Source of the DNA: Salminus brasiliensis
Taxonomy: Eukaryota > Chordata > Actinopteri > Characiformes > Bryconidae
Direction of reading: 5' to 3'
Assembly (NCBI RefSeq): GCF_030463535.1
Contig: NC_132878.1
Coordinates: forward strand, 31,874,261-31,938,260
DNA: 64,000 nt
Shown here: positions 5,476 through 61,928 of the stretch, in pieces
Position numbering within the stretch: position 1 is the first letter of the stretch
Layout of the letters: each line of letters begins with the position of its first letter
Translations under genes and position numbers: made by a program
Notes under the pieces: generated by a model
What the model was told of the DNA's origin: nothing
What the model saw: the letters and a program-made list of their open reading frames with translations, nothing else
Database searches by the model: none

Positions 5476-6214
5476 CTGATAAGAACACAGAAAAATAGGT
5501 GTTTACAGTTTAGCATATCTGGCAGATATTTTACAAGATGCATCAGCTGACCATACACAGTCATATGTAAAAGTTTGGACACATCTGGAGTAAATAAGTG
5601 AATGAATTCTGGGAGCATAAATCCTTAAATACAACATTTCAGACATAAATCCCATTTAACCAGTTTAACCTTTGGGGGAAAAAATACATTTGGCACGTCG
5701 TACGCTTAATTTTTCTCCTATTGTGTTAAATTCAGTAAATAAACAGCAACTTCTTAAAAACGTTCAGAAATGTGTTCTCCGTGGAAGATCTAAAGCACCC
5801 AACTGTATCGCTTAAGCCAAAACAAACAACCTAAACTCAAGATTGTCCAAGCCAACTGAGAAATCCTGCTTTGCAAAATGAACCATGCTTTTATTGGTCA
5901 CTGACCAGGAAGGAGGAGTTAGCAGCCGTGACGGTTCCATGTGGTTTGACAAAGGCGGGTTTTAGTTTGGCCATCTGCTCCAAGGTGCTGGGCCGGATCC
6001 CGTTGTCCTTGGATACAATGTCCTTCCCTGCAACAACGCAGAAACAGGAGCAGGACTCAAACAATTTGCAACTCGCTTGAGGATAGTACTGCTACTACTG
6101 CTGCTGCTGCTGCTGCTGCACTACTACTAATACTATTGCTAATACTATTATTAATATTACTGCTACTAATACTGTTACCACTGATACTACTATTGCTGCT
6201 ACTGCCAATACTAT

Positions 6215-6247
<33 letters not shown>

Positions 6248-9200
6248 TGCTAATACTATTACAAATACTACTACTACTACCACTACTACTGCTACTACTA
6301 CCACCACTACTACAACTACTACTGCTAATACTATTACTAATACTACTGCTACTACTACCACTGCTAATACTATTACTAATACTACTGCTACTACTACCAC
6401 TAATACTATTACTAATACTACTGCTACTACTACCACTGCTAATACTATTACTAATACTACTGCTACTACTATCACCACTACTACTACTGCTAATACTATA
6501 ACTAATACTACTACTACTGCTAATACTATTACTAATACTACTGCTACTGCTAATACTATTACTAATACTACTGCTACTACTACCACCACTACTACTACCA
6601 CTAATACTATTACTAATACTACTGCTACTACTACCACCACTACTACTACCACTAATACTATTACTAATACTACTGCTACTACTACCAACACTACTAATAC
6701 CACTAATACTATTACTAATACTACTGCTACTACTACTGTATTACTAATACTACTGCTACTACTACCACCACTACCACTGCTAATACTATTACTAATACTA
6801 CTGCTACTACTATCACCACTACTACTACTGCTAATACTATAACTAATACTACTACTACTACTGCTAATACTATTACTAATACTACTGCTACTGCTAATAC
6901 TATTACTAATACTACTGCTACTACTACCACCACTACTACTACCACTAATACTATTACTAATACTACTGCTACTACTACCAACACTACTAATACCACTAAT
7001 ACTATTACTAATACTACTGCTACTACTACTGTATTACTAATACTACTGCTACTACTACCACCACTACCACTGCTAATACTATTACTAATACTACTGCTAC
7101 TACTACCACCACTACTACTATTGCTAATACTACTACTAATACTACTGCTAATACTATTACTAATACTATTACTACTACTACTGCTAATACTATTACAAAT
7201 ACTACTGCTAATACTACTGCCAATACTATTACAAATACCACCACCACCACTACTACTGCTGCTAATATTTTTACTACTACTACTACCGCCAATACTACTA
7301 CTGCTACTTATATTGCTACCACTGCTACTACCACTGCTACTACCACTGCTACTACCACTGCTACTACCACTGCTACTACCACTGCTACTACCACTGCTAC
7401 TACCACTGCTACTGCTGCCATGCATTTTATTACAGCCCTGCATAATTCTCATATATGGGTCTGGAGTCTAGAGGAGTCTTCACCTCTGTATGTACTGTAC
7501 TGTATTAGGGATGTTACTCTGATTCTTTCATGACCCCCAGAACGTCTTTTTATTATTTGAATGATTTACCATTATGATTAATTTTTTTCAAACTTCAAAC
7601 TTCCTGATGATTTGAACTCACTCTGATTATTTTAGTATGCCTCAAAAGTCTTAATGAAAAACTCACAATTCACAAATATGGAACCACCCACACAGTAGTG
7701 GAATACAAACAGTAAAGCACCAATATTTATAAAATCATTTAAAATTGTTAGTGGGGAAAAAGTGCATGGTTTGTTATATTATAATCAATGTGGGGTTTTG
7801 TTTTTTTTTAATAAAAAGGCCCAACATTGCCCCCTTCAGACGAACAAGCTGCAAGTCTCACCGGGAACTTTAAAACTGACAACGTCCGTGAGCAGGCCCT
7901 CATCCTGAGCTTTTTTAGCCAGCGCGTGAGAGCGAACAGCAAACTCATCCTGTTCCTGCCGAGACACGCCGAATGCAGCCGCCAAGCGATCAGCGGAATG
8001 CCCCATCGTTTCTGCTGTGGAGAATTCAGCCACTGCAGGGAGCTGGAGAGAGAGGGGGGGAGGACTAGTTACAATAGTGACCAAATTACTCTACAAAAAT
8101 GAATCCTAGATGTCCAAAAGTATCCAGACATCCCTTCTAACTGGACAGTGGTGGTATATTGATAACTGGGTTTTGGGTTCGATATGCAGGTGCACTAAAC
8201 TTATTTTTAAGCTGATTTAGGCTAATACAGTGTTTTAGGTGTAAGGTGCATTGGGTATTGCAGTACGTCAGGTGCCAGGTGAGCCATTCGAATAGACCCC
8301 AGCAGAGATAGCCTGGCTCCGAGCGTCTTCGCCTTGTTTAGGGACAGCATCGTCTTCCTCATTTTTCGGCTGTGGCGAATCGGCACGTCTGACATAAACT
8401 CGCATCCGCCTGCTACGACCGCATCACACTGACCAGCAGCAATCAACCCCACGGCTACGAAACACAACAGCACACCATCGTTACAGGCTGCATGTGGGAG
8501 AAAAATGCTGCACATTTATGAGGTAAACAACATGATGTATACTTGTAGATGTTATTACAGCACAGCATTGCAAAGACAGGGGACAGCTTGTTCAGAACAC
8601 AGCATATAGGGCTAGTGTGCTCTAATACTCTTCATTAGAGCCTCGTCATCAACTATAATTCTCTCTCTGTTAAGCCTGTGCATTCCAGGCCTAAGCCCAT
8701 GACTGTGGAGCCAGCCCTCAAAGAAGAAGCAGCAGCTGCCATAAAGGAAAAAGCAGCAGAAATATCATGTTAAAAAATTGTTATATTAGTACCTGAAGTC
8801 ATGGCTTGGTTGGAGGAGATGCAGGCCATAGTGACAGTGTGGGCTGGAGTTCTATCGGAGAATCCTGCACCAAGCGCAGCCTGCATGTGCACATACACAG
8901 AAACACACACACCTGTAATCACACTCTACTACTTCTACTACTACTACAGCAGAAGCAGTACCTGAAATCTCAAATAATTGCCATCTGAGGCGAGGGTGTA
9001 ATGATTGAGGCCTAATGATTAGCCTTCCATTAACCAAACAGGGCCTTTGAGGTACACTGATGGAGTAATCACTTTACAGACAGACACACTTTTACTTCGT
9101 TGGGACCAAAGTTAGCTCAGTGAACCACAAACTTGACCCCCCCCCCTCCCAGAGCACGGCTCGGTGTGAACTGACCTCTCTGGCCACATTGCTGGTTTTC

Positions 9201-9495: not shown

Positions 9496-9575
<80 letters not shown>

Positions 9576-16905: not shown

Positions 16906-18348
16906 TAACTCTTACTCACTACTTCATGGTGGATTTGGGGAAAAAAAAAACTTACTTTTTGTAGGGGCTGATCCCATCCTATGTTGAAAACTGGCTGGCA
17001 TTGTTGGAAGTAGGAAATTAGCTGCTGTCAATTCTTTTAACATTGAAATTGAAACAACAAATTGTGTAGGTTAACTATTAAAGACTATAAATATTACATT
17101 ATGGTATCAATTTCCAAAGACGTGTCTGCATAGTTTGTCATGGTTACCAGGCACCAGAAATGAAATTGCACAAGCTTTAGCTTTTCCTTTCCAGCTCACA
17201 TGTAACTTGCGATCAGGCTTTGGTTAAACCTAACATGTTGCGTTGTGTTGTTTTCACTGCACTGAGGGCTGAACAAAAAACTGAAAAGCAAGTTTGATTG
17301 GATTCACTCAACGTGTGGTCCCCAACGTGGCTGGAAGGTGATATTGGTCCAGGTTAAAGCCCGTGTGTGTTTTTGTTTTTATGAAGTATGTGCATAGATC
17401 CCAAAAATGCTTTTATCGGCATGGAAACGAAGTACCCATACCAATAATGCAAAGATATCTGCTTCAGTTATCGGTCGCGGTGATAATCAGACCCCTATTT
17501 CTTTCCATTGACTAAGGATATAGAGAGCAACTCTGGCAGAGTCCTTTCAGGCCTCCTCTTTTGAGCAGCGATGGAATTTGGTGTGGTTTAGAGATGCCCC
17601 GACCCAAATTTTCTTGGCTGATTCTGATAATAATATTTCTCGTAACTTTTGCAAATAACGTCCGAGAAGTATCGCCTGCTTTGCGTTGTATACCTTGGGC
17701 TTCGTTGATGTATCAAGTCTCTGAAACCTCTGTCCGTGACCCCAGGAAATGGCTGCTCACCCAGTGCTATGAATTCCATGATTTTCCTCGTAATGACCTT
17801 GGAGGTCTTTTCATTGCTGAAGAAGGTTAGCAGAGGCTGCAGGCCTGTGGTTGGCTCTGTGCTCTCACTAGCTTTAGTGTCATGGCTTTTGCTAGCTTCT
17901 TCAAAGGTTTTGAATGTGGAGTTGTTCCTTCACCGCTTGCTTTGGCCTTCCAGGGATTGCAAATTGTGTTGTTGTTGAATTGAACAGGCTTCAAATGAGC
18001 ATTACAGACCTGAATGTGTTCAAATGTAGGCTGTAAACACGTTTTTTGGATCCAATATGCTAATTTTAAATGTATGTAAATGTTTGCGACTGATCTGTTA
18101 GTCTGTGCTAATGTTTTGTTTTTGTTTAGTAAATGGACGCCGCAACTTCTCGGCATCGGCGGCTTTGTCTGGTAAACATTAAAACCATTTCTACTATAGC
18201 ACTCATTCATTTTTATAGCAATTATGTGACCGTTCTTGGCTAATACACCTGTACATACATTTTGCTTTGTTCTGCAGCTCGCAGCTATGTTCACTATGAG
18301 CTTAAAGATGATGTTGCAGTCATCCGACTCAACGACCCATCAAGCCGG
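15255..18348 (+). CDS. hadha: HADHA exons 1-3: presequence and start of the hydratase domain
   Basis: Exon 1 is 15255-15321, exon 2 is 18130-18171 and exon 3 is 18278-18348. The protein begins [20 protein letters not shown], an Arg-rich, acid-free targeting peptide. Exon 2 adds NFSASAALS and exon 3 begins the crotonase fold ([20 protein letters not shown]). Intron 1 is the largest at 2.8 kb and contains a second ERR-type site at 16039-16048 near an E-box CCACGTGG, a short TATCT repeat, and a decayed hAT-like element. Confidence 0.95.
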
Positions 18349-21300
18349 GTCAGTACCTTCACCATACCATTCTGTCCATTAGAGCGATGTTTTTGTAAAG
18401 GTTTGGGCAACTTGAAAAAGATTAGATTTGAATGGTCAGATCACTTTTACCAAGGTCACAAGTCTTGATTAGCTTATTAGGCCTATGGCTTGTTCTCAGC
18501 CATCATACTGTGCAGAGACATGTGCACAAATATGACCCTAATGGCCGACAAGTCAAGTATGACAAGTCAGGCCTGAGATATCACAGATTTCAGATATTCC
18601 ATTGAGTAAAGCAGCTGTAAGCTTCACCTGAGTCTGAATACAGCTTCAGCTTATGGTTGTTGTGTTTTAAATAAAGAATCGAAAGCACTGAAGGTGCACT
18701 GACCCTCTAGCTGATGGTGCATATTGGTACCAAGTCCGTTTGGCCACATGGATCATTTTGGCCGCAATGAGGGGACAAAAGGGTGCAGAATTTCATGAAA
18801 AGACCATATTTCCAATGTTAAGCTCAGTGATTAGTCATGATTTAGGCTTGTTTTAAAGCCAGTGGCATGAGGAACATTTCACTGAAGGAATGGGTTCTAT
18901 TAAATACTAGTTAAAACAGACCAATAATCTCACTGAGCTAGAATGAGCAGGATGCTCAAATTTGTTTTTCAGGCCTGTTAACTTTAACTTTGTCATCTTT
19001 GGCCTTCAGATCATCTTTTGCTTGCTTAGCCATTTACAGTTACAGTCAATTTGACCAGGGGTGCCCAAATGTTTGCAGGCCACTGTAGGCTCATTACTGA
19101 AATTCTAAACTCTGTTGTGTATTTATGCAGGTCATTGTGGATGTGTCTGCTTATGTGCATTTGCTTATGAGTGCAGGTGAACACACTGTCGCAGCAGATG
19201 GGGAATGAAATTAGGGAGGTGTTAGAAGAGGTTTGGGGTAATGGGGCAGTGAAGAGCGCTGTGGTCATCTCCACCAAACCTGGCAGCTTCATCGCGGGAG
19301 CAGACCTCAAGTACAGTACACACTTACTTATGCCGACATACATAAACTGTTGTTTTAAAAGTGGAAATCACTTGATGTCTTAAAGCTTATAAACGATAAT
19401 AAGCTAGAAAAGTTTAAGTATTTTGTGAATATTAATAATTTGTTACCTAATAATTCTTGGCTTACATGCTTCAATGTGTGGTTTTCTCTTTTGAAATATG
19501 TGACATTAGGGGTATTATTTTTCATTACTTGAATTCTTGATGGTGACCGCCATGTGTGCCCTATGTATTACTGTAATGCTAAATTACTGTGTGCCCTCAT
19601 CACCACACATTGTCCTTATCGGCCCACAAATCTGAACGTTGGTGGCAGATAATCACTTCGATGGTCACATGGACACCCTTCAGGAATGTTGTTTATATCT
19701 TCCTCTACTCCAAATCATGTTGAACTGGTTGGACAAAAGGCCTTAAGCATTCAAGTCGGTGAAGTACAGCTTGTCACTAAAGATTTTCTGTCTTCGCACT
19801 GGGTCTAGGGATTTTGTTCATTACTGCTGGCATTGCCATGTGCCGCTAGAGACATCATTATGCAAATCATTATTTATTTATTTATTTTTGTACTAACCTT
19901 ATGTATGCTTATCAGCCTGCCAGAGTCTAGACATTTCCCCGCAGCTTTCTGAGGAATCAAAACTTCTCGTGAAGTTTGTTGTCCAGTTTTATTTGAAAAT
20001 AGAATTATTTTGTACTTTTTACATTATAAAAAAATATTTCATTGATTATTCCATTAGAATTATTCTGTTGTGAATGAGAGTACTTTTCCTTTCTTCTCAG
20101 CATGTTCACGACCTGTAAGACTGCCGAGGAGGTGAGCAAACTCTCACGGGATGGACAGGAGATGTTTGAGAAGATCGAGAAATCGCACATCCCCATTGTG
20201 GCAGCCATTAATGGATCTTGCTTGGGTGGAGGCCTGGAGGTGAGAGCGGGAAGGAGAGGAAGGATGGATGAGTGGTTGGGTGAATGAGTGAGCGGATGAC
20301 TGGGCATGTGCGCACATGGATGAATGGGTGGGTGGTTGTTTTGGCGGATGGATGAACGAGTGGGTAGTGCGCTGGATGGATGAATTAGTGGATGAGTGGA
20401 TGGAGGGATGAATAGGTAGATATACAGATGGGTAGGTGGGTGGATGGAGTTAATGGATAGAATGTGGTTGTGTTATTTTGCTTTTCAGGAGCTAATCAAA
20501 GAATGGATGGATGGCTGGTAGGGTGGATAGATCTATGAATGGATGGAGGGATAACAGTTGGTCACTTTTCTAAGGTACCAGCAATACCCACAATGACTTA
20601 TTGGTTCTCTTTCCATCTCTGTTTCAGTTTGCCATTGCATGCCAATACCGTTTGGCCACCAACAACAAGAAAACTGTCCTGGCCTGTCCAGAGGTGTTTC
20701 TGGGGCTACTGCCGGGGGCCGGAGGCACACAGAGACTGCCCAAAATGGTCAGACGCTTTACACACATACTCCCTAATTTGTACAGTTATTTATATCTGCT
20801 CCCTGTAGACTCTAGCTGCATTTAGGTTTTCTCTGAATGTAAAACTGCAGAAAAGTAGGCTACATAATCCCTGTTCCCAGTTAGAATTAGAATCACACTT
20901 TCTCACAGCAGTACAATGGTATTCAGTTGACACACTCACGCAAACCAGTGATGAGGACAGACTTTCTGATCCCAAGCCTGCTTCTTTAACCTTTAGGCCA
21001 CAGCTAATTCTGCAATTTCAGCAAATTCTGATTGCTAACATGCAAGCATTTGTACATTCTCTGGAATAAAAAATTTAATAAGAAGTCTTTAGAAGAAGCT
21101 CCTGCCAGCAAACCTATATGGTACAACTAGCAGTAAAATGCTTTTAACTGCCAGCTCACATGAATTGTTCTATTTTTTTTACTATGTTTTGTTTGCATAT
21201 CTAATGGAATTCTGAAATGTGGTTGTTTTTGTTTGTTTGGCTAATGTATTTGTTCTAGCTGGGGATTCCTGCTGCATTCGATATGATGCTGACTGGAAAA

Positions 21301-22254
21301 AACATTCGGCCAGACAAGGCAAAGAAGATGGGCCTGATCCACCAAGTGGTTAACCAACTCGGTAAGCTAGTTAGGAATTTATATATGCTCCCTAATTAAG
21401 AGACATAATACATGAAATGCCTCAGTGCTCCTAAAGTACGAAAATAATGTCCTATCTGCAGACATGGATTTGTTTTACATTAAAAATTGGTTTTTATATT
21501 GTTAAACCATTTCAGACAATGCAAATATCAAGATGTAGCCTATGTCACTTACCAGCAAATATCACTGTATCACTGTTGATCGCAGTACAGGGGTTAGGAT
21601 TCAATATATTGCGATATATAGCGGTACTGTAAGCATGACCATATAGTGCATTTATATATTTAGTTATTTATTTATTTATTAAACCATATTTTAGGAAAAC
21701 TGTTAGTATTATAGTGCACACCATCTGAACTGAAGTGACAGAGTGACCAATACAACACTGCTATCTAGTGGTCAGGGTTTAAACACGATACAAAATGGAC
21801 CACTGTCTGCCAGTAAGCTCTTCATGTCAACTGTTAGTAATCCATATTGTAATATTAGCTATACTTTCTTAATTTAAAAAAAAACAAACATTTTTTAATG
21901 TCATGTCCTGTTTTAATAAGACTTGTAATAATTGTCTCTGTGTAATGTGTTTGTGTACAGGTCCTGGACTGAAGGACCCAGAGGAGATGACTATGAAGTA
22001 CCTGGAGGATGTGGCTGTGGGCGTGGCTAAAGACCTTGCCAAAAAGAAAATTGCTGTAGAGAGGAAAAAAGGCCTAATGCAGAGTAATGCGCGCACATAC
22101 ACTCACCGTTTATCTTGTCACTGACATAGATGCTCACTAGTGAACAGGCTTACAAACTGTATATTAGGCATCACATAACAGGTAGCAAATACCTGCTATG
22201 CGATGCCTAAGACTAATATGCTGTTTCACTGCTTATGTAACAGTATTGCTATAC

Positions 22255-22327
<73 letters not shown>

Positions 22328-25300
22328 GGGCTGCAGGATGCAGCGTTTGGAATGTCCTTTGTGAGAAAACAGGTCTACAAAACAGTTCAAGACAAAGTGA
22401 TGAAACAAACCAAAGGCCTTTATCCTGCACCACTGAAGATCATAGAGGTATACACACACACAGGTCCAGGCATTAGCATATCTCACAGAGAGTTTTTCTT
22501 TTAGAATGTAAAAAAAAGGGTTGGCTACAAAAATCCATAATGTCAGTCCAGGATGTGAAATTATTTACTGTGTACAAGTGATTTTACTGCAGTGTTAATT
22601 GACAGTCTAGCTTATTCAAATCATGTGGCTGTTTTATAGATGGGAAATGCATGATGTGCATCAGCTTAAATAGAATCAGGAAGCAAAAACAATTATTGAA
22701 ATATTTCTAGCCATCACTGCAGTTATCTTTCTTGACTTGTGCGTTCAGCCTGTGGTCAGGAGTTTTTCCATAACAAGATTTAAGACCAGAGTGAGGGGTG
22801 TATGTAAATGGTGTGTCATGTCAATGAGATAGGTGACTGTCTTAAGTCCAGTGTTTGATAGCAACTTTAGCTTAGCATCTCTTGTTCTAAAATAAAGAAG
22901 CTCACTTTAAATGTACATCTCTTGGCTGATTGACTACATCTGGGACAAATCTGGCTGATCGACTACATCAGGGCTTGATTCGCAAATCTGTTGAGCCCCC
23001 TTTTCTGGCTCAGGTCTACTGAATTCTTGTGTCGCAATAGCCAATAAAAGACCAGAGGGTAGAATGAGGTGTGTCCTAAATGCACACGTTGTGCATCGAC
23101 ATTTCAGATAACACCAATGTAGTCCTAGAAGCAAAGATATACCTATAGTGCTAATCGTGTGTGTCTGTGTGTGTGGTTTAGAGTGTACAGACAGGTCTGG
23201 AGAAGGGTCCCGTTGAAGGATACAAGGTGGAGTCTGTGGTCAGTATAACTGCATCATTTATCTTGCCATGCACATTAGTTTAGGCAGATCTAGCTGTCTA
23301 AGGTTCAGTGTAGTAATAATAAATGAAGGCATATACTCCAGAGTTGTTGAGTAATCTCTAATACATGGTCAAAAATACTTGGCAAAAAGCTTTGCTACTG
23401 TCCACGTTCCCCCAACATAATTTTGTCTCCCACATTACTTGTAGTACATGCATACATGCACTTATTTAATGTTGTGTATATACTACACATGTTACAGTTT
23501 GAAAAAATTGAAAGAAGCCTTGTTCGAGGTAATGCACCGCCTCACCTATTGCTTTTCTTCCACTTAGTCACGCCATAGTTACTGTCTGTACTATTCCCTT
23601 AGACTAAGCACTACATCAAATGGGTGTAAAATACGGGGGCTCGTCTGGGATCGTAGCAACCTACGTTCATTGGGTGTGTAGTAGTAGTTGGATGAGTTCT
23701 GGTGTTCTGCTGCTTGCAAGTCTACTTAGAGATTACTCAACGAGTTGGGTTGAAGGGTCGAATTGCTCCTGCCTGTATCATACAAAATAATAATATTTCA
23801 TAGCACAATAATTTACCAGTGTGTGTTATTTGTTGGAGCTCAGTAGCAGTGATTATCTATTTATTTTATCATTTACTTATTTCAGATGTTAACATATTAT
23901 TCCTGGGTTTTTTTTTTCAGAACTTTGGGAAACTGGGTGTGACTTCAGAGTGCAGAGCCCTGATTGGTCTGTATCAAGGCCAGGTGGCTTGCAAGAAGAA
24001 TAACTTTGGCAAACCGGAGAGAGAAGTACAGTGAGTTTACACCACTGATTCACATGCTTTTCCCAACGGGTACAGTGTTGTCGCCTGGGCTATTAGTGAT
24101 TGCTTAATATTTATGTTAATATTAATATATAATATTTGAGTCATGTTTTAGTTCTAGATGTAACAGAATTTATTAGCCTATGTTATTTTATCAAGGATAT
24201 TTTTGTCTGATGTTTAGAAAAACGTTACAGGACACTGGCTCCATTGTGGCAGGCCTAATGGCATGCTGCTGTAAATTGCAGTGAGGTTTGGTGTGAAATG
24301 GTCCATTGTGTAAAAACTTACCAATTCAGATTTCTTTTTAGTGGTGATGGGAACCAGGAGTCCCAGTGACTACAAACACAAATTCATTCATTTTATGTAC
24401 TATCCAAACCCATTTTTCCCCATTTGAACCTGCACAATTGTCCCCAATTTTCATTGCATCTGAAAAGTTGCATGAAGTGCACTGCATAGTTTTGCCCTGC
24501 CACTTAGCAAGGTCACTGGAGCTCAACACGCTTGGAGGAGAACACGAAGTGCCAGTTGTGTTATCAGTTACATACCTAAACTAACACTGGTAGCGACTGA
24601 TAAAGTCATGGAAGCTTTTTATGAAGAACTGTCAGGCTGCAAATACACTCAACTGTTCTCACAACAGTTAATCTTTATTGGCCTTTTTATTTTTTTAAAT
24701 GTAATTAAACAAAACCCAATATATTCATGTTGCCATGTTCTCTAGGCATGACGAGCATTTGTTGCATGCACCAGAATAGCTATGTGCACATACAGTAAGT
24801 CAAGAAGGTGGGACGTGAACTAGACTGTAGATGTACTTCTCAGCATGGGTGCAATAACTGCTCCTACTTTGATCGGTCAGGAAATTGGCTATCCTGGGGG
24901 CAGGACTGATGGGAGCAGGTATCGCCCAGGTAACGGTGGATAAAGGCATATCCACCATCCTGAAGGACACCACAATAGAAGGAGTAGTCAGAGGGAACAA
25001 CCAGGTCTACAAGAGGTAAGACCACCGCACACATGCATCTCTACAGCAGAGATGAAGCTAAATCAACATAATGAAACCAGCTCTGAGAGGGTTTTTACAC
25101 ACAACACCTGCAGTTTGCTGCTTCATCCACCAGAGGGAAGCAAACCACTGTCTAAAAGACAGCTGTCAGGGCGCCACCAGGTGGCAGTGATGGCTTTTTA
25201 CTGATAGTTACACAGCAGATTTGAAACCAGGCATTAGGAGTTTAAAAAAGTTGTGCTAAGTAAGACTGAATATTCTATATGGCCAAAGGTATGTGGACAT

Positions 25301-28300
25301 CTGCTCGTCAAGCAACAACAACATTTTGAAAAGAGAGTTCGACTGACACTTTGTGCAGTAACAGCCTCTACTCTTTTGGGAAGGCTTAACACTAGATGGA
25401 ACATTGCTGTGAGGAGAATTTGATTGCAGTTAGCCCCACAAGAGCATTAGTGAGGTAAAGTACTGATGTAAGCTGATTAGTTCTGCCACTCCAGCTCCTC
25501 CCCAAGTTATTGGATGGAGCTCCATCAGTCTGGAGAACACAGTTCCACTGCTCCACCTCTCTGTTCTGGGGGGCTTTGTACCCGTGTAGCTGACCCTTAG
25601 AGCTCATATGGAGCTGTTCTATTGGTCAAGTCTATTGGTGAAGTGGCAGAATTAACAGATGGGATATTCACAGTTTTTTGGATATATAGTGAATGCCTCT
25701 CTCTGTTTTCTTTCTTTCTTACCTTCTTTCTTTCCTTCTCTCTATCTTTAGTCTGAATGACAAAGTGAAACGGAAGAACATAACCTCTTTTGAAAGGGAC
25801 GCAATAATGTCCCTCCTGACAGGGCAGGTGGACTATAGTGGCTTCCAGAATGCAGATATGGTTATAGAGGCAGTGTTTGAGGACCTGTCAGTCAAACACA
25901 AAGTACTGAAAGAGGTGGAAGCTGTGAGTATGTCTGTTTTGTTTTGTTTTTGTATCCATGCTGGTATACTTTTTCAGTGATAATCTGAAGGGAGTTCTAC
26001 CTGTGTATAGATCTGTGATGTGAATGACCCTGTGTGTTTACTGTGGGCAGGTGACTTCTCCTCACTGCATCTTCGCATCCAACACCTCATCTCTGCCCAT
26101 CAAAGATATCGCGGCTGCCAGCAAACGGCCTGAGAAGGTGAGGAAAGGTGTGTGTGTGTGTGTGTGTTTCACTGTATTGAAATGCATTTGCTACAAGTAC
26201 AGGAACACGTCAAATTGAGTTGTTGTGTGTGTTTTGTAGGTCATTGGGATGCACTATTTCTCACCAGTTGATAAGATGCAGTTGCTGGAGATCATCACCA
26301 CAGATAAAACCTCTAAAGACACCACAGCTACAGCTGTGGCTCTGGGGCTCACACAAGGCAAAGTTATCATAGTGGTGGGGGTAAGAGCCGTTTATTGAAT
26401 GTGTTTGTAAAAACAAACCTTATTCATTCTGAAGTCAATTGTAGCTTAATTGCAGAATTACCACAAACCAGCAAGACCCTTTGCTTTGGTTCAGTCATTT
26501 TTTGTGAACCGGCTTCACCTGCTAGTTGGTCTAGTTATTAGATACAGGCATGTGACCATTTGATTTCGAGGATGACTTGTCAGGAAGCTCACTGGAGTGG
26601 ACAAAAAGTGGCCACTGGTTTTGTTGAGCTATAAATTGCTATACGTTGACAATTTTACACCACCAAAGGATGTGGCTTTTAAATTGGACAGCAGGTATAG
26701 CTGGTTAAATTTAATGTGTTAAAATGTCAAAATTACTACTTTGAAGCTAAAAAGAGATGGCCAACAAATCTCCAGTGTAAAATGCTTGAAATTGTCGTAA
26801 ATGAGAAGAAATGCACAGCACAGGATTTGTAAAGTTACCATGGAGGAACAACAGCTTTGCAGAATCATATCTGTTTTGTACACCAATAACATTATCAGAA
26901 AAATTAAACTATTAATATGATCTGGGTCCTCCTTGTTCAACCAAAACAGCTCTCCACTGTCAAGTTGTGAACTCCACGAAACCTCTAAAGGGGTCCTGTG
27001 GTATCTGGCACCAAGGCATTGTAGCAGTTCATTTAAGTCCTATAAGTTGTTTGGTAGGACCACCAGTGAGCATAAGTGAGCCTTAGGTGTCCATCACCTT
27101 GACGCCAGTTGTCCTTTCTGGGAGCACATTAGGTAGGTACTGACTACTGCATACTGGGAACACCCCACAAGTACTAATATTTTGGAGATGTTCTGACCCG
27201 GTCATCTAGACATCACAGTTTGGTTCTTTTCAAATTGGCTGGCATTTTTTTCTAAGGGTCATTTTGAGAATGAGCTTTCAGGAACACAGAGTATTCAAAG
27301 CCTACAAAATGCTAGTTGGTGCTGTATAAAACTTAAGGTAGTCATTAATGAGGTTCTTAAATAGGACAAGATTATGGGTTGATCTAGAGGTGGTATTGGA
27401 CAGAATAATGGGGAATGGAGCTATAAGGTACTGGAATAGTTGTGGACACTCTCCTTTTGATCTCCCATTCTTTCTCACTCTCTTTTTAGGATGGACCAGG
27501 ATTCTATACAACACGTTGTCTGGGTCCTACACAGTCAGAAGCAATAAGAATACTGCAGGTAAATGATAGGCTGCTGCAGCTACCCTGGACCTCCTGAATA
27601 TTTTACTTATTATAGTGCTTCAAACTTCAAAAAAAAAATTAGTAAAAAAAATCTGCATAGAGAAAAACATTTTTGCTGTCTCATGCGTTCAAGGCTGTTT
27701 TGTGAGAAAGGCCCTGAGTGTCTGGGTCAGGCACTGTCCTTCAGTCTGGTGAAAAAGTAAATACTGAAAGTACACTCTGAATCTCTAAATAGCTTGTATC
27801 AGATTTGTACAACTGAATTTAAATTGAAACTTGTCTACTGAATTTAAAGTTTATAAAAAAGAAAAAACACATTTTTCCATTGGCTGTGCCCGCAGGAAGG
27901 GGTGACTCCAAAGAAGTTGGACGCTCTGACTAAAGCTTTTGGCTTTCCTGTGGGTTTGACTGCTCTGTTGGATGAGGTGGGCATGGATGTGGCGGCTCAC
28001 GTAGGAGAGGATCTTGGTAAGGCCTTTGGTCCGCGATTTGGGGGCGGGAGCACTGATCTGCTGAAGACAATGGTGCAAAAAGGCTTCAAGGGTATGAGAC
28101 CATCTTTAACAGTACACACACACATTCGTTTATGTACTGTTGTTTACATGTGCACATGTGTGTTTGTGTATCTGTGCGTGGATACTTGCCATACCACCAT
28201 TTTTTTGTTTGTTTGTTTATTTGTTTGTTTCTTCCTCAGGTCGTAAGTCTGGTAAGGGATGGTATGATTATGCGGGCAAGAAGAAGGACAAGAAGGTAAA

Positions 28301-30212
28301 CGCTGGAGCGGAGGAGGTTCTGAAAGCCTTCAAACTGACTGCGCCCCCTGCTGTGTAAGTGCCGTACTACCACACGCTATTATACAGCTATAATACACGC
28401 TACTGTATAAACGAATAATACATGGCATTAAGTTCTGTGCACACAAGTTACCGGTTTAGCAGTTCATTGCGCTCTAGAGCACAGAAAGGTGTGTAGACGG
28501 TAGACTACTGAACGTCGCCACTGTGACATTGACAGCACTCTTACTTTTGTACAACAGCAAGAAAAATAAATTCTCATCAGTGTCAAAATTGAAGAGACCT
28601 GTATGTGCTGTATAATGGTGTTTGTATGACTTGTTCATCTGTAAACTAACAGCAGTATGTCATGTAACATGCCATAGCCAAAAAAAGTAAACCCCTACTT
28701 TTTTTTCCTGTTCTCTCTCCATCTGTACAGGTCTGGGGATGAAGATGTTCAGTATCGACTGGTTTCCCGGTTCGTGAACGAGGCTGCTATGTGTCTGCAG
28801 GAGGGTATTCTGGCAGATCCTGTTCAGGGAGACATCGGAGCCGTGTTTGGCTTGGGTTTCCCTCCTTGCCTTGGAGGTGAGTGGACACATAGAAAATACC
28901 TGTCAGGTTGGGCACTGCAGGTAATTAGGCATGTTTGCAATAGATGTGGTGATGGTGAATCCTCCAGAGTTCCTTTAAAAACACTGAACTTCTCTAATGT
29001 CACATTTTAGAGATGTGTTAGTGTTACGACTGTAATATGTAGTAGATCTAAATCGAACAACTAAACAGTAGGGATGTACCTATTGAGTTATTTGCTATTT
29101 GTTTGATTAACCCCAATGCTGATTGTTGGTTGAATCCGATCTTTGTGTTTCTATAAATAATAAAGCTCAACAGTTTAAATAAGAAGTGCTGTTACTATAA
29201 ATACTAGTAAATCACTGTATATTCAGTGACCATTCTAAACGCATTCATTTTGTTTGGCACAACTTTATTTTTTTAAATGACTGTTTTAAACTTTATAGTG
29301 TATTCAATACCTAATAATCCAGTCTGACTGACCTACCTGACCATGCAACTCCCAGTTCCTTTAAAAAAGCTGCAGTCAAATTACCAGTAGTGGTGCACAC
29401 TTTAAACTAATATTTGTTGCTTATTGTTGATTACAGATGTGTATGACTGAATAAGCTGATGTCCTTTTCTAGCATGAGTGTATAGACAATCAACAAATGT
29501 TTTAAGAAAGAGTCTGTACTGTCTGTTGTTGAAGTGCCACGTTAACAACAAGGCTCTCAGCAATCCTTCTGTTAAACCTGCCACTCTTTTTCTAAAACTA
29601 CCCTGTAACATTTATTTTGGTGAATAAAACAAAAAAGAGCTTTATCTGAAGTGATAAGTGCCATTACGTTACCAGTTAGCAACCAAAACAAGGCTGCTAA
29701 TTCTATCACTCCATTCAACATTCCTGTTAATGGAGCCTAGGGGACAACAATCCAAGGAAAAGAAGTAGATTAGGGGATACCTAGTCCATTGAATTTTTTT
29801 TTTTTTTAAATGCCTGGATTGGTCCCAAGTCACTGGATCGGATCGGGGCATGTCCCTTATATTGCACGGTCAGTGGAAATCGCTTTTAACCAGGAAGGTT
29901 GGACTTGACCAGTGTTGTCCAAGTGGAGTCAGTAACGAACGGGATAACGAATGGGCTTATTCAGTAGATTGTATTAGGAACTAGCAACTGATCAGAGAAA
30001 CCTGTTTCAGAGGTTTTCGTTTTGTCCAGTTTGACTGAAGTGTGTATTTTGTGACCTGTATTGTAGGTCCATTCCGCTTTCTGGATTCGTTTGGAGCCGA
30101 TAAACTAGTTCACAAGATGAAGCGTTACGAGGACGTTTACGGAATGCAGTTCACCCCCTGCCAGCTCCTCTTGGACTATGCCAAGGATCCCAGCAAGAAG
30201 TTCCACAAGTGA
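15255..30212 (+). CDS. hadha: HADHA, trifunctional protein alpha subunit (long-chain enoyl-CoA hydratase / 3-hydroxyacyl-CoA dehydrogenase)
   Basis: The alpha subunit hydrates long-chain 2-enoyl-CoA and then oxidises 3-hydroxyacyl-CoA with NAD+, passing the product to the HADHB thiolase in the mitochondrial inner-membrane complex. Twenty coding exons with GT-AG borders join in phase to 2292 bases, 763 residues, the same length as human HADHA. Counting from Met1, hydratase glutamates fall at Glu151 (GGGLE) and Glu173 (CPEVFLG), the NAD-binding GAGLMGAG at 368-375, and the dehydrogenase pair at His498 (GMHYFSP) and Glu510 (MQLLEII). Glu510 is the residue changed in the common human LCHAD-deficiency allele, and it is intact here. 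The start has G at -3 and +4. Exons are listed in the four block entries below. Confidence 0.98.
16039..16048 (+). promoter_or_regulatory. ERR-type response element in HADHA intron 1
   Basis: TTAAGGTCAC is identical over 10 bases to the promoter site at 15001-15010 but on the opposite strand. It lies 8 bases after an E-box (CCACGTGG at 16024-16031). Spacing from the HADHA start is about 0.8 kb. Confidence 0.45.
16876..16911. repeat. (TATCT)n short tandem repeat
   Basis: About six units of ATCTT/TATCT in HADHA intron 1. Confidence 0.8.
17560..18010 (-). mobile_element. Decayed hAT-like element with BED-finger remnant
   Basis: On the minus strand an open stretch reads [20 protein letters not shown], resembling the Cys-rich start of BED zinc fingers in hAT transposases. 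It is followed by broken sequence, with a GATGCCCCGACCC motif at 17591-17603 of the kind seen at fish hAT ends. Stops interrupt it and only a fragment remains, in HADHA intron 1. Identification is by pattern only. Confidence 0.4.
19177..23238 (+). CDS. hadha: HADHA exons 4-10: enoyl-CoA hydratase (crotonase) domain and linker
   Basis: Exons: 4, 19177-19310; 5, 20101-20239; 6, 20628-20747; 7, 21259-21361; 8, 21961-22083; 9, 22329-22447; 10, 23182-23238. Exon 4 carries the oxyanion-hole segment SFIAGADL (residues 97-104). Exon 5 ends exactly on catalytic Glu151, and exon 6 holds Glu173 and [13 protein letters not shown]. Exons 8-9 encode the helical linker ([13 protein letters not shown]). The exon 9 acceptor is a (TG)33 run followed by TTAG. 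Exon 10 is only 57 bases and poorly conserved ([15 protein letters not shown]). Confidence 0.95.
20245..20560. repeat. Degenerate GGAT/GAATG tetranucleotide repeat
   Basis: Imperfect GGATGGATGA-type units fill most of HADHA intron 5. No coding content. Confidence 0.85.
22259..22324 (+). repeat. (TG)33 tract forming the exon 9 polypyrimidine region
   Basis: Sixty-six perfect bases of TG end 4 bases before HADHA exon 9, the junction being TG...TG TTAG|GGCTGCAG. No conventional pyrimidine run exists between the tract and the AG. The arrangement resembles the TG tract at the human CFTR exon 9 acceptor, where TDP-43 binding promotes skipping. Confidence 0.95.
23921..26380 (+). CDS. hadha: HADHA exons 11-15: NAD-binding 3-hydroxyacyl-CoA dehydrogenase domain
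   Basis: Exons: 11, 23921-24030; 12, 24881-25015; 13, 25752-25923; 14, 26051-26137; 15, 26240-26380. Exon 12 encodes [17 protein letters not shown], the Rossmann dinucleotide-binding turn. Exon 13 carries [13 protein letters not shown], exon 14 [11 protein letters not shown], and exon 15 the catalytic His498 and Glu510. Introns 13 and 14 are short (127 and 102 bases). Exon 15 ends VIIVVG, where human has VIIVVK; the exon/intron reading GGG|GTAAGAG leaves little doubt about the splice point. A TG run follows the exon 14 donor. Confidence 0.96.
25275..25692 (+). mobile_element. Tc1/mariner-type MITE in HADHA intron 12
   Basis: It opens with CTATATGGCCAAAGGTATGT and closes with GGATATATAGTG, imperfect terminal inverted repeats. 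The interior shares GTTATTGGATGGAGCTCCATC-type sequence with the MITE at 33036-33500. It stops 60 bases before the exon 13 acceptor. Confidence 0.65.
26935..27260 (+). mobile_element. Fragment of a Tc1-like transposon in HADHA intron 15
   Basis: Segments such as GTGGTATCTGGCACCAAGG, GGGAACACCCCACAAG and TTTTGGAGATGTTCTGACCC are, from memory, characteristic of a common fish Tc1-like element in antisense orientation, with a central deletion. The terminal part of what appears to be the same family is at 30850-31099. Confidence 0.6.
27490..30212 (+). CDS. hadha: HADHA exons 16-20: C-terminal dehydrogenase domains
   Basis: Exons: 16, 27490-27558 ([13 protein letters not shown]); 17, 27896-28091 ([19 protein letters not shown]); 18, 28240-28354 ([17 protein letters not shown], a lysine-rich variable segment); 19, 28731-28876 ([15 protein letters not shown] and [17 protein letters not shown]); 20, 30067-30212 ([12 protein letters not shown] through FHK and a TGA stop). 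All phases close. Intron 19 (28877-30066) contains the second copy of the decayed transposon-like repeat also seen near the left edge. Confidence 0.96.
29065..29865 (+). mobile_element. Decayed DNA-transposon-like repeat, copy B (HADHA intron 19)
   Basis: It is related to 1125-1640 over several blocks in the same order. The right end reads GATCGGATCGGGGCATG, resembling hAT-type termini, and the left end GTAGGGATGTACCT. There is no coding capacity. Confidence 0.5.
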
Positions 30213-30805
30213 ACCTAGATCAGAGGTCATGGCTCATTTAACCAGCTGTTTGACCTCAGGTTCGAGGGCCACCATTGCCTGTCCATCCACCATTAACCAC
30301 ATTGGGAGTTCTGTATCTTTACTGCATAAGCCATAACAAGCCAAAATCGACATTGGTACTATGTATGAACATGCTCACCTTTTGCTAAACACTTTATTTT
30401 TTTGGTGCCTTATTATGGCACAGTCAACTTCATTCAGTTAACATCTGTGCAAGAGATAAGTGCATTTGAAGCATTTGATGGTAACTATGCCTTTTTTTAA
30501 GAGCTTGAAATCCAGATCCCACCACTGTGTGGAACTGTAACTACTGCAGCTGTATTGTGATCAGGTTCTACCCACAATGCCTTCAGGTCGTATCTACAGG
30601 GAGATTGGGAGATTGACTTTTGCACTTTCTGCTATTGATTGTTTATTTGTTTTGTATAGATTTTGTTTTCTCTATCTGTGAATAATTGTAATTTAGTGAA
30701 CTTTAACTTTCCAACTAGTACCCAGTACTCGAATAATTACCTGGCTGTTTTAGTTTTTTTTTTTTCTAAACCCTGCTTCAAATAAATCAGACTGGACCTG
30801 GATGT
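30213..30805 (+). other. hadha: HADHA 3' untranslated region
   Basis: Sequence from the TGA stop to just beyond AATAAA at 30781-30786. It is AT-rich with no open frame of interest. The end is inferred from the poly(A) signal. Confidence 0.75.
30781..30786 (+). terminator. hadha: HADHA poly(A) signal AATAAA
   Basis: A canonical hexamer 569 bases after the stop codon, the only one in this part of the plus strand. Cleavage is expected near 30800. Confidence 0.75.
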
Positions 30806-35190: not shown

Positions 35191-36959
35191 CTAACGTCAG
35201 TCGTTTGTTTATTGAGGAGGTGTAGTTTGAAGACGGTGCCACAGTGTCCACCCAGTTTAGTCCCTGTAGACACTCCAAACTCAACTAGTGATATTTAAAT
35301 ATATAAAATCTCCTTTTAAAACACAGAACCACTCATGTACCACTCACACAGACACGGGTGGGTGTTCAGTAGTTTGATGGGACGTTGTCCCTCAGCAGCT
35401 AAGCTCTGAGCTTTCTAAACCCAAAATTAATGGGGGGGAATGTGATATGAGCCTTTTCCACCTGTCGAAGGAAAGGTCCACTAGTCAGCGCTGTGGGCAG
35501 CTGCACCTGATTTTAGTAAAGAATCATGTTGGAGGCAGAAGCAGTAGTCAGAAGCAGCTTAGCTTGAAGCCAGATGTACTTTGTTAGCCTGGAAGTACTT
35601 TATAACAGAGCTGGATTCATTTTACCTGGGGAAGCATTGTCATTGAAGCCATTATCAATGAAATATGTGATTTTAATCTGCACCTGTTATGGTCTGATGA
35701 TAACAGCTGAGAGACTTTAATCCAGTATGAATCTGCAGTGTGTTTAGTTTTTACAATTTAATAATAATAAATGTGGAGTGATTTTGATCCTGTATGAATC
35801 TGCAGTGTAATTAATTTGTACAATTTAATAATAATAAATGTGGACTGATTTTGATCCAGTATGAATCTGCGGTGTAATTAATTTGTACAATTTAATAATA
35901 ATAAATGTTGAGTGACTTCAATTCAGTATGAATCTGTAATTTTTACAGGCTAACACTGATACTTGCAGTGTGATTTTAATTCAGAGTAAATGTGTGTTTT
36001 ACAGTCTGATTAGAAATACTTGAAATGTTTTCAATCCACTGTGAGTCTGTGCATAGTTTTTACAGGCTGTCAATGACATGATTTTAATCCCGTATGAATG
36101 TGCAGTGTGCATAGATCGTTTTACAGTGAAACAGTAATCATTTTGAAGCGACTTTGTGAAGTGACTTTAACCCAGTATAAATCGCAAGTAATACTTCCGG
36201 TATGAATTGAATCCAGCGTGAATGTGTGTAGTTTGTGTAGTTTTTACAATCGGACTAAGACATTTGGAATGTTTTCAATACAGCATAGTTTTACAGCCTG
36301 ACAGTAATAATTCATGATATGACTTAAATCCAGTATGTATCTGCAGTGGGTTTCGTTTTTACGGTCTGATTATAAGAGCTGTTCTTAAACAGGCTACGTG
36401 GAGTAGAATAACAAAACCTGCCAATAGACACGGATGTGGGGTTATTATCATTGAGTTCACATCCAAACTGTGACCTTTCAATCTGGGCCTTCTGTGGGAA
36501 TTGCAGAAATAACACACAGTTTATCCTGAAGCCAATGGCCAGTCAAATCCCACACGTTACAATACAGAAGCTACCCTGGTAGAACAAATCCAGCTGCAAT
36601 AGTGCAGGAATAAATAAATGCTGAAAGTACAACAGAAACACTGCTAGGTGTAGCCCCCTTAAAATGAAGTAGCAAGCTACTAATTAAAATACTGCTCACT
36701 GATGTCTGGACACACTCGTTTTTTTTCTGTATCTATAAATGACCAGTCGACTACTCCTTCTTTTCTAGTCAACTAATAAAAAATGACTGGACGTGCAAGC
36801 CCTAGTAGGAATGCATATTATCAGACAGTCATCAGTCCATTTTCCCACACACACATACACACACACACCCACACACATAATTGTGCTACTTCTGTCCAAC
36901 ACTATTGTACCTCCTGGGTTCTTCACTTGTGTATTGTTCACAGTATATGTGGCCAAGGA
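35190..36959 (-). other. garem2: Probable GAREM2 3' untranslated region
   Basis: This follows the GAREM2 stop (36960-36962) on the minus strand. The nearest AATAAA in that sense is at 35208-35213, which would make a UTR of about 1.75 kb. It includes the decayed 67-bp tandem repeat and an AC run near 36847-36877. Without transcripts the extent is uncertain. Confidence 0.35.
35713..36390. repeat. Decayed 67-bp minisatellite
   Basis: The block GA(C/T)TTTAATCCAGTATGAATC-like recurs at 35713, 35780, 35847 and 35914, a constant step of 67 bases, each followed by TGCAGTGT and TTTACAATTTAATAATAATA. Later units to about 36390 are increasingly diverged but keep CAGTATGAATCTGCAG and TTTTTACAG landmarks. 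Confidence 0.85.
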
Positions 36960-58599
<21,640 letters not shown>

Positions 58600-58636
58600 C
58601 TACCGATAAAAGCAGAATTAGAATAGGATATATTTC

Positions 58637-60541
58637 TTGACTGAGAATCATGTCATGTGTAAATGGCGGACGACCAAACTAGAGGTGTTCCACTCTGCGT
58701 GGAAGGACAGCCTTAGTCAATATAGAAAGGCACTCATTAAAACTCGCTCAGTGTATTTGGCCTCGCTGATCGAGAAAAACAAAAGCAATGAGATCTCTAA
58801 ACTTACTAAAAGCCAGGCAGATACTCAACCCCAGATTCCAACATCTTTAACCAGTCATGTTTTTATGGACTATTTTAATAATAAAATAGAAAATATTAGA
58901 CAACAAATCCAACCCTGCTTATTAAATCAAACATGGCCTTCACCTGATGTAGCTGCTTTAGAACATATCTTAGTTGTAGAACAAAGGCTAGAAGCCTTCT
59001 ACCCACTTCCACAGCCTAAACTAGAAAAACCTTGTACACTCGACCCAATTCCCTCTAAATTGCTAAAAGCAATACTCCCAATTATAATCAGACCTCTTTT
59101 AACAATTGTAAATTCATCCCTTAGCCTTGGGCATGTACCCCAAACCCTTAAAATAGCAGTTATAAAACCTTTAATCAAGAAACCAAATCTTGATCCTAGT
59201 GTATTATCTAATTATAGACCCATCTCCAACTTAACATTCGTATCTAAGATACTATAAAAAGCTGTGGCCCAACAACTCTTCTTATACCTGAGTAAAAATT
59301 ACATGTATGAGAAATTCCAGTCTGGATTTAGACCCAATCACAGCACAGAGACAGCCCTAGTGAAGATTACAAATGATCTCCTTCTTGCCTCTGATCAAGG
59401 CTACGTATCTTTATTAGTCCTACTAGACCTTAGTGTAGCCTTTGATACAATAGATCATACCCTATTACTAGAAAGATTAGAGAAAATGGTTGGAATCACA
59501 GGAACATCCCTATCATGGTTCCAATCATATCTAACGGGACGCTTTCAATTCGTAAAGATAAAAGATTTATCTTCAAATTACACAGAAGTAAGATATGGAG
59601 TTCCGCAAGGCTCAATTTTAGGACCGCTATTATTTACATTATACATGTTACCACTGGGCTCAGTTATAAGCAGACATGGCGTTAATTTCCATTTCTATGC
59701 AGATGACACACAGCTCTATATATCAGCCAAACCTGACGATAAATTTAGACTACAGAAAATGGAGGACTGTGTAAAGGATATAAAACTCTGGATGTCACAT
59801 AACTTCCTTCTCCTCAACAGTGACAAAACTGAGGTTCTCCTTTTAGGTCCAAAAGACACTAGAAATAAACTATCTGACTTAATGTTAGACTTGGCTGATT
59901 CTTCCATCATTCCTGGTTTAGCAGCTAAAAATCTTGGTGTCACATTCGACTCAGATTTATCATTTGAGCAGCATACAGCCAATATTAGTAGACCAGCCTT
60001 TATGCAGCTTAGGAACATCTCCAAACTAAGAAACTCTTTATCTCTACAGGATGCAGAAAAGCTAGTACATGCTTTTATTACCTCAAGGCTAGATTACTGT
60101 AATGCACTTTTGTCAGGTTGTTCCAGCAGGAACCTCAATAAACTTCAGCTGGTGCAAAATGCTGCAGCCAGGGTCCTTACTAAAACTAGAAAATTTGACC
60201 ATATCAGTCCAGTTCTATCAGCACTTAATTGGCTCCCAGTTAAATTCTGTATCGAATACAAAATTCTTCTATTAACATATTAAGCCCTACATGGCCTCGC
60301 TCCTGAGTACCTGCGGGATCTTATTGTATATTACGAACCATCAAGACTACTTAGATCTCAGGGTGCTGGCCTCTTACTCGTTCCCAAAATTCAGAAAACC
60401 TCAGCAGGGGGAAGAGCCTTTCCTTATAAAGCCCCCCAACTCTGGAATAACCTTCCAGATAATGTTCGGGACTCAGACACAGTCTCAATCTTTAAATCTA
60501 AGCTGAAAACTCATATGTTTAGTTTAGCTTTTGGTAATTAA
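58637..60541 (+). mobile_element. L2-like LINE, 5'-truncated, reverse transcriptase with two stops
   Basis: This non-LTR retrotransposon fragment lies in GAREM2 intron 1, antisense to the gene. One frame runs from the region before the reverse transcriptase to the C-terminus: FRPNHSTETALVKI, LLDLSVAFDTIDH, YGVPQGSILGPLLF, the catalytic FHFYADDTQLY (YADD box), LNSDKTEVLLLG, and the ending FKSKLKTHMFSLAFGN. The endonuclease half is missing. The same frame is interrupted by TAA at 59255-59257 and TAA at 60281-60283, otherwise intact. The following 500 bases are probably its 3' UTR. The family (L2/Rex1-like group) is judged by motif wording only. Confidence 0.9.
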
Positions 60542-61439: not shown

Positions 61440-61928
61440 TATTGCTAACAATGCTAACCTGGGACAATCCTAACAATGATAACCTGGGACAATGCTAACC
61501 TGGGACAATCCTAACAATGCTAACCTGGGACAATCCTAACAATGCTAACATAGGACAATCCTAACAATGCTAACCTGGGACAATCCTAACAATGCTAACC
61601 AGGGACAATCCTAACAATGCTAAACTGGGACAATCCTAACAATGCTAACCTGGGACAATCCTAATAATTCTAACCTGGGACAATCCTAACAATGGTAACC
61701 TGGGACAATCCTAACAATGGTAACCTGGGACAATCTTAACAATGCTAACCTGGGACAATTCTAACAATTCTAACCTAGGACAATCCTAACAATGCTAACC
61801 TGGGACAATCCTAACAATGCTAACCTGGGACAATCCAACAATTCTAACCTGGGACAATCCTAACAATGCTAACCTGGGACAATCCTAACAATGCTAACCT
61901 GGGACAATCCTAACAATGCTAACCATAA
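61440..61928. repeat. 25-bp minisatellite, about 19 copies
   Basis: Tandem units of AACCTGGGACAATCCTAACA followed by ATGCT, mostly exact, with scattered changes (GCT to GGT or TCT, CCTGG to CATAG or CAGGG) and two shorter units, near 61488 and 61834. It lies in GAREM2 intron 1 or upstream of the gene. Confidence 0.95.

Follow-up and report, generated by a model that had tools for sequence, protein, structure and literature searches.

The window analysed here, a stretch of 64,000 nucleotides (nt) from Salminus brasiliensis (assembly GCF_030463535.1, contig NC_132878.1, positions 31,874,261 to 31,938,260 of the forward strand), contains the genes HADHA, on the plus strand, and HADHB, which lies head to head with it on the minus strand. 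The element of interest is a (TG)33 repeat at the 3' end of HADHA intron 8, which occupies the place of the pyrimidine tract, is complementary to the 5' end of the same intron and may act as one arm of a bridged intron of a type described in fish. HADHA was located by tblastn with human HADHA and exon borders were set by hand at GT-AG, giving an open frame of 703 residues over exons 4-20. The spliced product aligned to the human trifunctional enzyme alpha subunit (6dv2) without gaps over 702 residues (1069.8 bits), which supports the 16 junctions within the alignment. The number ‘exon 9’ for the exon following the repeat depends on upstream exons 2-8, of which exons 2 and 3 were deduced from the frame, and exon 1 was not found in gene modelling. 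HADHB includes a Thiolase_C match on one fragment. Together the two models comprise 30 introns, 18 in HADHA and 12 in HADHB, and all intron counts below refer to this set, omitting HADHA intron 1, the first HADHB introns and all other genes of the window.

The repeat consists of 33 perfect TG units followed by TTAG (22325-22328) and then exon 9, as a preliminary description of the locus had reported, with strict TG alternation continuing for 67 nt up to position 22325. The span given in that description, 22259..22337, begins correctly and ends 9 nt too far, within exon 9. Its proposal that the repeat makes up the entire tract of the 3' splice site is borne out by the composition of the acceptor, as the 20 nt upstream of the NAG contain 10 pyrimidines, the fewest among the modelled introns, and the longest pyrimidine run in this span is 1, again the lowest value. 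In a pattern scan, the nearest branch-like A without an intervening AG was at 22257, upstream of which the last AG is at 22242. The distance of 71 nt from this A to the acceptor compares with a human branch-acceptor spacing of 19-23 nt, and longer spacing weakens splicing according to excerpts of a fission-yeast study (PMC9508853). Inside exon 9, the first two AGs end after 8 and 15 nt. The second of these would keep the frame; use of this alternative acceptor was considered and is supported by nothing. When folded alone, the UG tract had zero self-structure in the folding model. Once the last three bases are set aside, the final 40 nt of 4 of the 30 introns contained a TG run of at least 8 nt, as against 1.2% of 2625 intron-internal 40-mers, which overlap and hence are not independent. 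The only other comparable perfect TG/CA tract in the window is (CA)37 at 9499-9573, which reads as (TG)37 on the HADHB strand; it was rejected as a HADHB acceptor element, since it sits in the middle of HADHB intron 2, with 223 nt separating it from the acceptor.

The two ends of intron 8 are complementary in register, with all 18 of positions 2-19 pairing with the last positions of the intron (13 Watson-Crick and 5 wobble pairs), a value that tops the set, the other 29 introns reaching at most 15. The donor arm of intron 8 (D8; Table 1) was the strongest partner of the tract among the 30 donors and 3339 overlapping intron-internal 24-mers, and none of 500 mononucleotide or 500 dinucleotide shuffles of D8 paired with the tract as strongly. 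The folding energy of the whole intron was -90.5 kcal/mol (z -3.16), with 1 of 200 shuffles as low, and when the tract was held fixed and the remainder of the intron shuffled, 1 of 200 reached the 21 end pairs of the real sequence. Between the two arms lies an inverted repeat that, once folded, may reduce the distance separating the intron ends. When blastn was used to look for another copy of this hairpin in the window, it returned just chance-level matches of 16-18 nt, and a search of positions 18000-30300 for structured-RNA families gave zero Rfam matches at gathering thresholds.

Table 1. Features at HADHA exon 9 and its flanking introns (positions within the window)
Feature	Position	Strand	Basis
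Intron 8 donor arm D8, GTAATGCGCGCACATACACTCACC	22084..22107	+	Complementarity to tract
Intron 8 internal hairpin, 21-nt arms 90% complementary, 5-nt loop	22164..22210	+	Inverted repeat
Candidate branch site CTTAC, A at 22257, 71 nt from acceptor	22254..22258	+	Pattern scan only
(TG)33 tract replacing the pyrimidine tract	22259..22324	+	33 perfect units read from sequence
TTAG/GG, acceptor and first exon bases	22325..22330	+	Holds hnRNP A1-type hexamer UUAGGG
HADHA exon 9, 119 nt	22329..22447	+	tblastn, hand-set borders, alignment to 6dv2
Intron 9 donor arm D9, GTATACACACACACAG	22448..22463	+	Complementarity to tract
Intron 9 acceptor arm A10, UG-rich end of intron 9	23155..23181	+	TG run 10

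Complementarity to the tract is also found on the far side of exon 9, at the donor arm of intron 9 (D9), where 15 of 16 positions are complementary to (TG)33. Donors 8 and 9 were the two best tract partners of all 30 donors, an outcome with a probability of 1/435 under random order in a test that was chosen after looking at the data. When 1709 23-mers, taken every 7 nt through HADHA, were paired with the tract, the best two started at 22085 and 22449. Donors as a group leaned towards tract complementarity relative to the internal 24-mers (Mann-Whitney p 0.002; with introns 8 and 9 left out, 0.011), and acceptors as a group leaned towards complementarity to (AC)33 (p 0.012). AC runs of at least 8 nt occurred in positions 7-50 of 2 of the 30 introns and were absent both from the 30 3' ends and from the 2625 internal 40-mers, which are slightly shorter than the 5' stretches. 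With 40-nt donors set against 70-nt acceptors, the donor of intron 8 ranked second of 30 for its own acceptor and the acceptor of intron 9 ranked second of 30 for its own donor. Pairing of D9 with the acceptor arm of intron 9 (A10) was stronger than that of all 207 internal 24-mers of intron 9. Both flanking donors are weak by consensus, at 5 of 9 matches each, with one of the 30 donors having fewer and one more tying, and donor 8 is also weak by U1 duplex energy (-2.4, with 2 of 30 weaker).

Elsewhere in HADHA, intron 5 (20240-20627) has a GA-rich 5' end and a CU-rich 3' end that are complementary at 15 of 18 positions in register, and the duplex between its own donor and acceptor (-36.2 kcal/mol) is the strongest of the 30 introns; on this pattern, intron 5 is a possible bridge of another composition. 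Intron 14 (26138-26239, 102 nt) contains GT runs of 20 and 9 nt near its two ends.

Introns in which UG tracts and complementary CA repeats pair, join the intron ends and replace U2AF2 have been described in fish, according to excerpts of PMC12962679 and PMC9198270, which attribute the class of AC-GT bridged introns to Lin et al. 2016 (Genome Res 26:12). Intron 8 resembles these introns in having a UG repeat at its 3' end, 4 nt before the exon, a complementary 5' end and hardly any pyrimidine tract. It differs from them in that the complement at its 5' end relies partly on wobble pairs and is no AC repeat, and in that its tract also complements the next donor, beyond exon 9. Given the composition of the 5' arm, strict membership of the class fails, while the statement that intron 8 works like a bridged intron stands. 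Intron 9 does have the AC-GT layout, with an AC run of 9 at its 5' end and a complementary TG run of 10 at its 3' end, the layout being judged here without the original length threshold. The favoured interpretation, given an even chance of being correct, is that the UG repeat is the 3' arm of such a bridged intron and that inclusion of exon 9 is the normal outcome. In the nucleus, the opening 19 nt of intron 8 (GUAAUGCGCGCACAUACAC) would pair with the acceptor UUA and the adjoining end of the tract, joining the splice sites. This bridge would take over the role of U2AF2 and let exon 9 be recognised despite the near absence of a pyrimidine tract and the remoteness of the branch-like A. TDP-43 bound to single-stranded UG, and a quadruplex formed by the poly(UG) (pUG) tract, would each compete with the duplex of D8 and the tract.

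Another possibility is that, fish introns being rich in TG tracts, the repeat is a neutral microsatellite that grew beside an acceptor still working via its branch site and AG, with length having no effect on splicing. Several introns of these two genes carry TG runs near their ends, 4 of 30 on the 3' side and 3 of 30 on the 5' side, and fish introns are said to contain thousands of perfect matches to the pUG-fold pattern (excerpts of PMC12962679). Slippage alone would not be expected to produce complementarity between the two ends of the intron, nor to place the two best partners of the tract at the flanking donors. Neutrality is held to be unlikely.

A somewhat better placed, though still rather improbable, explanation develops the one raised in the preliminary description and consists of repression as at CFTR exon 9, where the (TG)mTn element of intron 8 precedes the acceptor. 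Under this explanation, TDP-43 on the UG tract together with hnRNP A1 on UUAGGG would block the acceptor, exon 9 would be skipped in proportion to repeat length, and the skipped transcript, carrying a stop in exon 10, would probably be degraded. The consequence of skipping can be computed from the model: exon 9 begins after one codon base and finishes at a codon border, such that omission of its 119 bases shifts the frame, as the earlier description had it, and brings a stop codon into frame within exon 10, at 23214-23216. As this stop is many junctions upstream of the transcript end, decay of the transcript is expected. The part of the model encoded by exon 9, residues 207-246, falls between two Pfam matches, ECH_1 (1-164) on its N-terminal side and the dehydrogenase (303 onwards) on its C-terminal side. 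An assignment of exon 9 to a position outside the hydratase domain, based on these borders, was withdrawn, as the ECH_1 match halts at profile position 176 of 251 and the end of the hydratase domain may therefore be unmatched; exon 9 may lie within the domain, as the preliminary description had it, or beyond its end.

The likeness to CFTR extends to the UG tract at the acceptor, the hnRNP A1-type motif at the junction (UUAG/GGC, a candidate site), the destruction of the product that skipping would bring about and a proposed role for RNA structure. Hefferon et al. 2004 reportedly proposed a structure formed by the CFTR repeat, and pairing between the CFTR tract and the next donor is not known to have been described, though no search aimed at it was made. 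Skipping of CFTR exon 9 requires TDP-43 plus hnRNP A1, with motifs UAGGGA/U and UUAGGGAG (excerpts of PMC12171016), TDP-43 binds (GU)6 with picomolar affinity in vitro (PMC12697283) and the length of human GT repeats is associated with TARDBP binding (excerpts of the preprint PMC13174678). Excess TDP-43 leads to the skipping of constitutive exons in mouse and human cells, for which short UG motifs are suggested as the cause in excerpts of PMC11163724. The HADHA tract differs from that of CFTR in lacking a T-run after it and in being roughly three times as long in units. Effects at CFTR appear with about 11-13 units beside a T5 run (compare PMC12171016), and a tract of 33 units next to an exon of so central an enzyme suggests that it is tolerated in this organism. 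No fish data linking HADHA exon 9 with TDP-43 were found, and none of the papers searched dealt with hadha, zebrafish, splicing and exon 9 together. The earlier analogy has some foundation in the UG sites available to TDP-43, which at 33 units are far longer than (GU)6, and in UUAGGG; what it overlooked is the complementarity of the intron ends and the fish intron class.

The tract could also fold on itself into two left-handed pUG quadruplexes, which would hide it from both TDP-43 and the CA-rich arms and alter splice-site use. Excerpts of PMC12276007 report that 12 repeats form one pUG fold, that at least 24 can form two, with (GU)29 mostly double, and that pUGs are enriched near human splice sites, and those of PMC12697283 report that TDP-43 binding and the pUG fold are mutually exclusive. 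The 33 repeats of the HADHA tract exceed the 24 needed for two folds. Unlike typical pUG folds, this tract is flanked by complementary CA-rich arms, the half-life of pUG folding is a matter of minutes (PMC12276007), and the relevant excerpt of PMC12962679 names fish introns as the case in which CA/UG pairing applies. The folding program used is unable to model the pUG fold, and this explanation is considered very unlikely.

The presence of complementary donors on both sides of exon 9 raises the question of which of them the tract would hold. Expected base pairs were modelled from before donor 8 to exon 10 under four energy-parameter sets. At 11 units, donor 9 had 10.9-11.3 expected pairs with its own acceptor and 0.0-0.2 with the tract, while at 33 units the corresponding values were 0.02-0.76 and 12.0-14.6; pairing of donor 8 with the tract remained at 15.8-18.6 at both lengths. 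Every one of the four sets placed the crossover of donor 9 in the range of 17 to 25 units, in agreement with a finer scan under Turner 2004. It was slightly higher at 28 C (Turner 2004) and lower without dangling ends or without GU closure, and a longer 3' context returned donor 9 partly to its own acceptor (12.57 versus 1.54; Turner 2004). This modelling describes equilibrium, protein-free folding of more than 1 kb, and so provides a hypothesis only and nothing direct on cells. It would be compatible with a length-gated splicing switch, in which up to about 17 units the tract would hold donor 8 only, leaving donor 9 to pair with its own acceptor and exon 9 to be included, whereas above roughly 20-25 units it would clamp both donors, capturing donor 9 across exon 9. 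Such capture would favour skipping of exon 9 or formation of an exon 9 circle, and the dose of HADHA would fall with repeat length, with no need for TDP-43. A switch of this kind is regarded as quite unlikely. A literature search on AC/GT repeats and back-splicing had neither repeat term among the matches listed, which does not prove absence.

Several observations weigh against the favoured reading, in which intron 8 is bridged and exon 9 normally retained, or against the switch. The longest AC run of D8 in positions 7-50 is 4 nt, which makes it no AC repeat, and its duplex with the tract covers the donor GU as well as the acceptor, and so has to be unwound to admit U1 and U2AF35 and to permit catalysis. 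In the folding model, tracts of 14 units or more left hardly any of the acceptor UUAG unpaired (mean unpaired 0.02-0.03), and larger folding contexts handed part of the tract to donor 9. Without GU closure, pairing was already mixed at 11 units (expected pairs of 6.1 for the tract with donor 9, 5.8 for donor 9 with its own acceptor and 7.4 for donor 8 with acceptor 10). Donors 12 and 6, like donors 8 and 9, paired with the tract more strongly than all 3339 internal 24-mers, and strong partners are thus not confined to the flanking donors. Over the 30 introns there was no general enrichment of pairing between a donor and its own acceptor, bar a few high ranks, and with a free register the 81-nt HADHB intron 11 also scored 18 of 18. 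TG runs of at least 8 nt were also present in positions 7-50 of 3 of the 30 introns, showing that TG is not confined to 3' ends. Donor 9 is middling by U1 duplex energy (-5.8, with 13 of 30 weaker). The 23-nt frame of D9 from 22448 scored -22.3, which was equalled or exceeded by 8 of the 1709 sampled 23-mers. Of these eight, four share sequence with D8 or D9 and one lies at 23443 in the middle of intron 10. Further, 67 of 500 dinucleotide shuffles of D9 paired with the tract as strongly, because such shuffles retain the AC steps.

Elsewhere, the window contains further repeats and open frames. An imperfect TAC-repeat array of 1.3 kb (6087-7413) lies within HADHB intron 6, and minisatellites with units of 25 and 67 nt are found at 61489-61924 and 35709-35936, respectively. 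A minus-strand open frame at 44156-45139 matches the CABIT domain (1.4e-24) and belongs to another gene. A reverse transcriptase fragment at 59258-60280 (Pfam RVT_1, 3.4e-25) is a retroelement remnant, and the frame beside it, 58622-59254, gave zero Pfam matches.

If intron 8 is simply a bridged intron, then a wobble complement, and not only an AC repeat, may act as the 5' arm, in which case searches for AC repeats would undercount bridged introns. If, instead, repeat length selects which donors are clamped, RNA pairing by itself would allow a microsatellite to determine the dose of a core mitochondrial enzyme, and effects ascribed to TDP-43 on the strength of UG tracts in fish would have to be told apart from those of CA/UG pairing.
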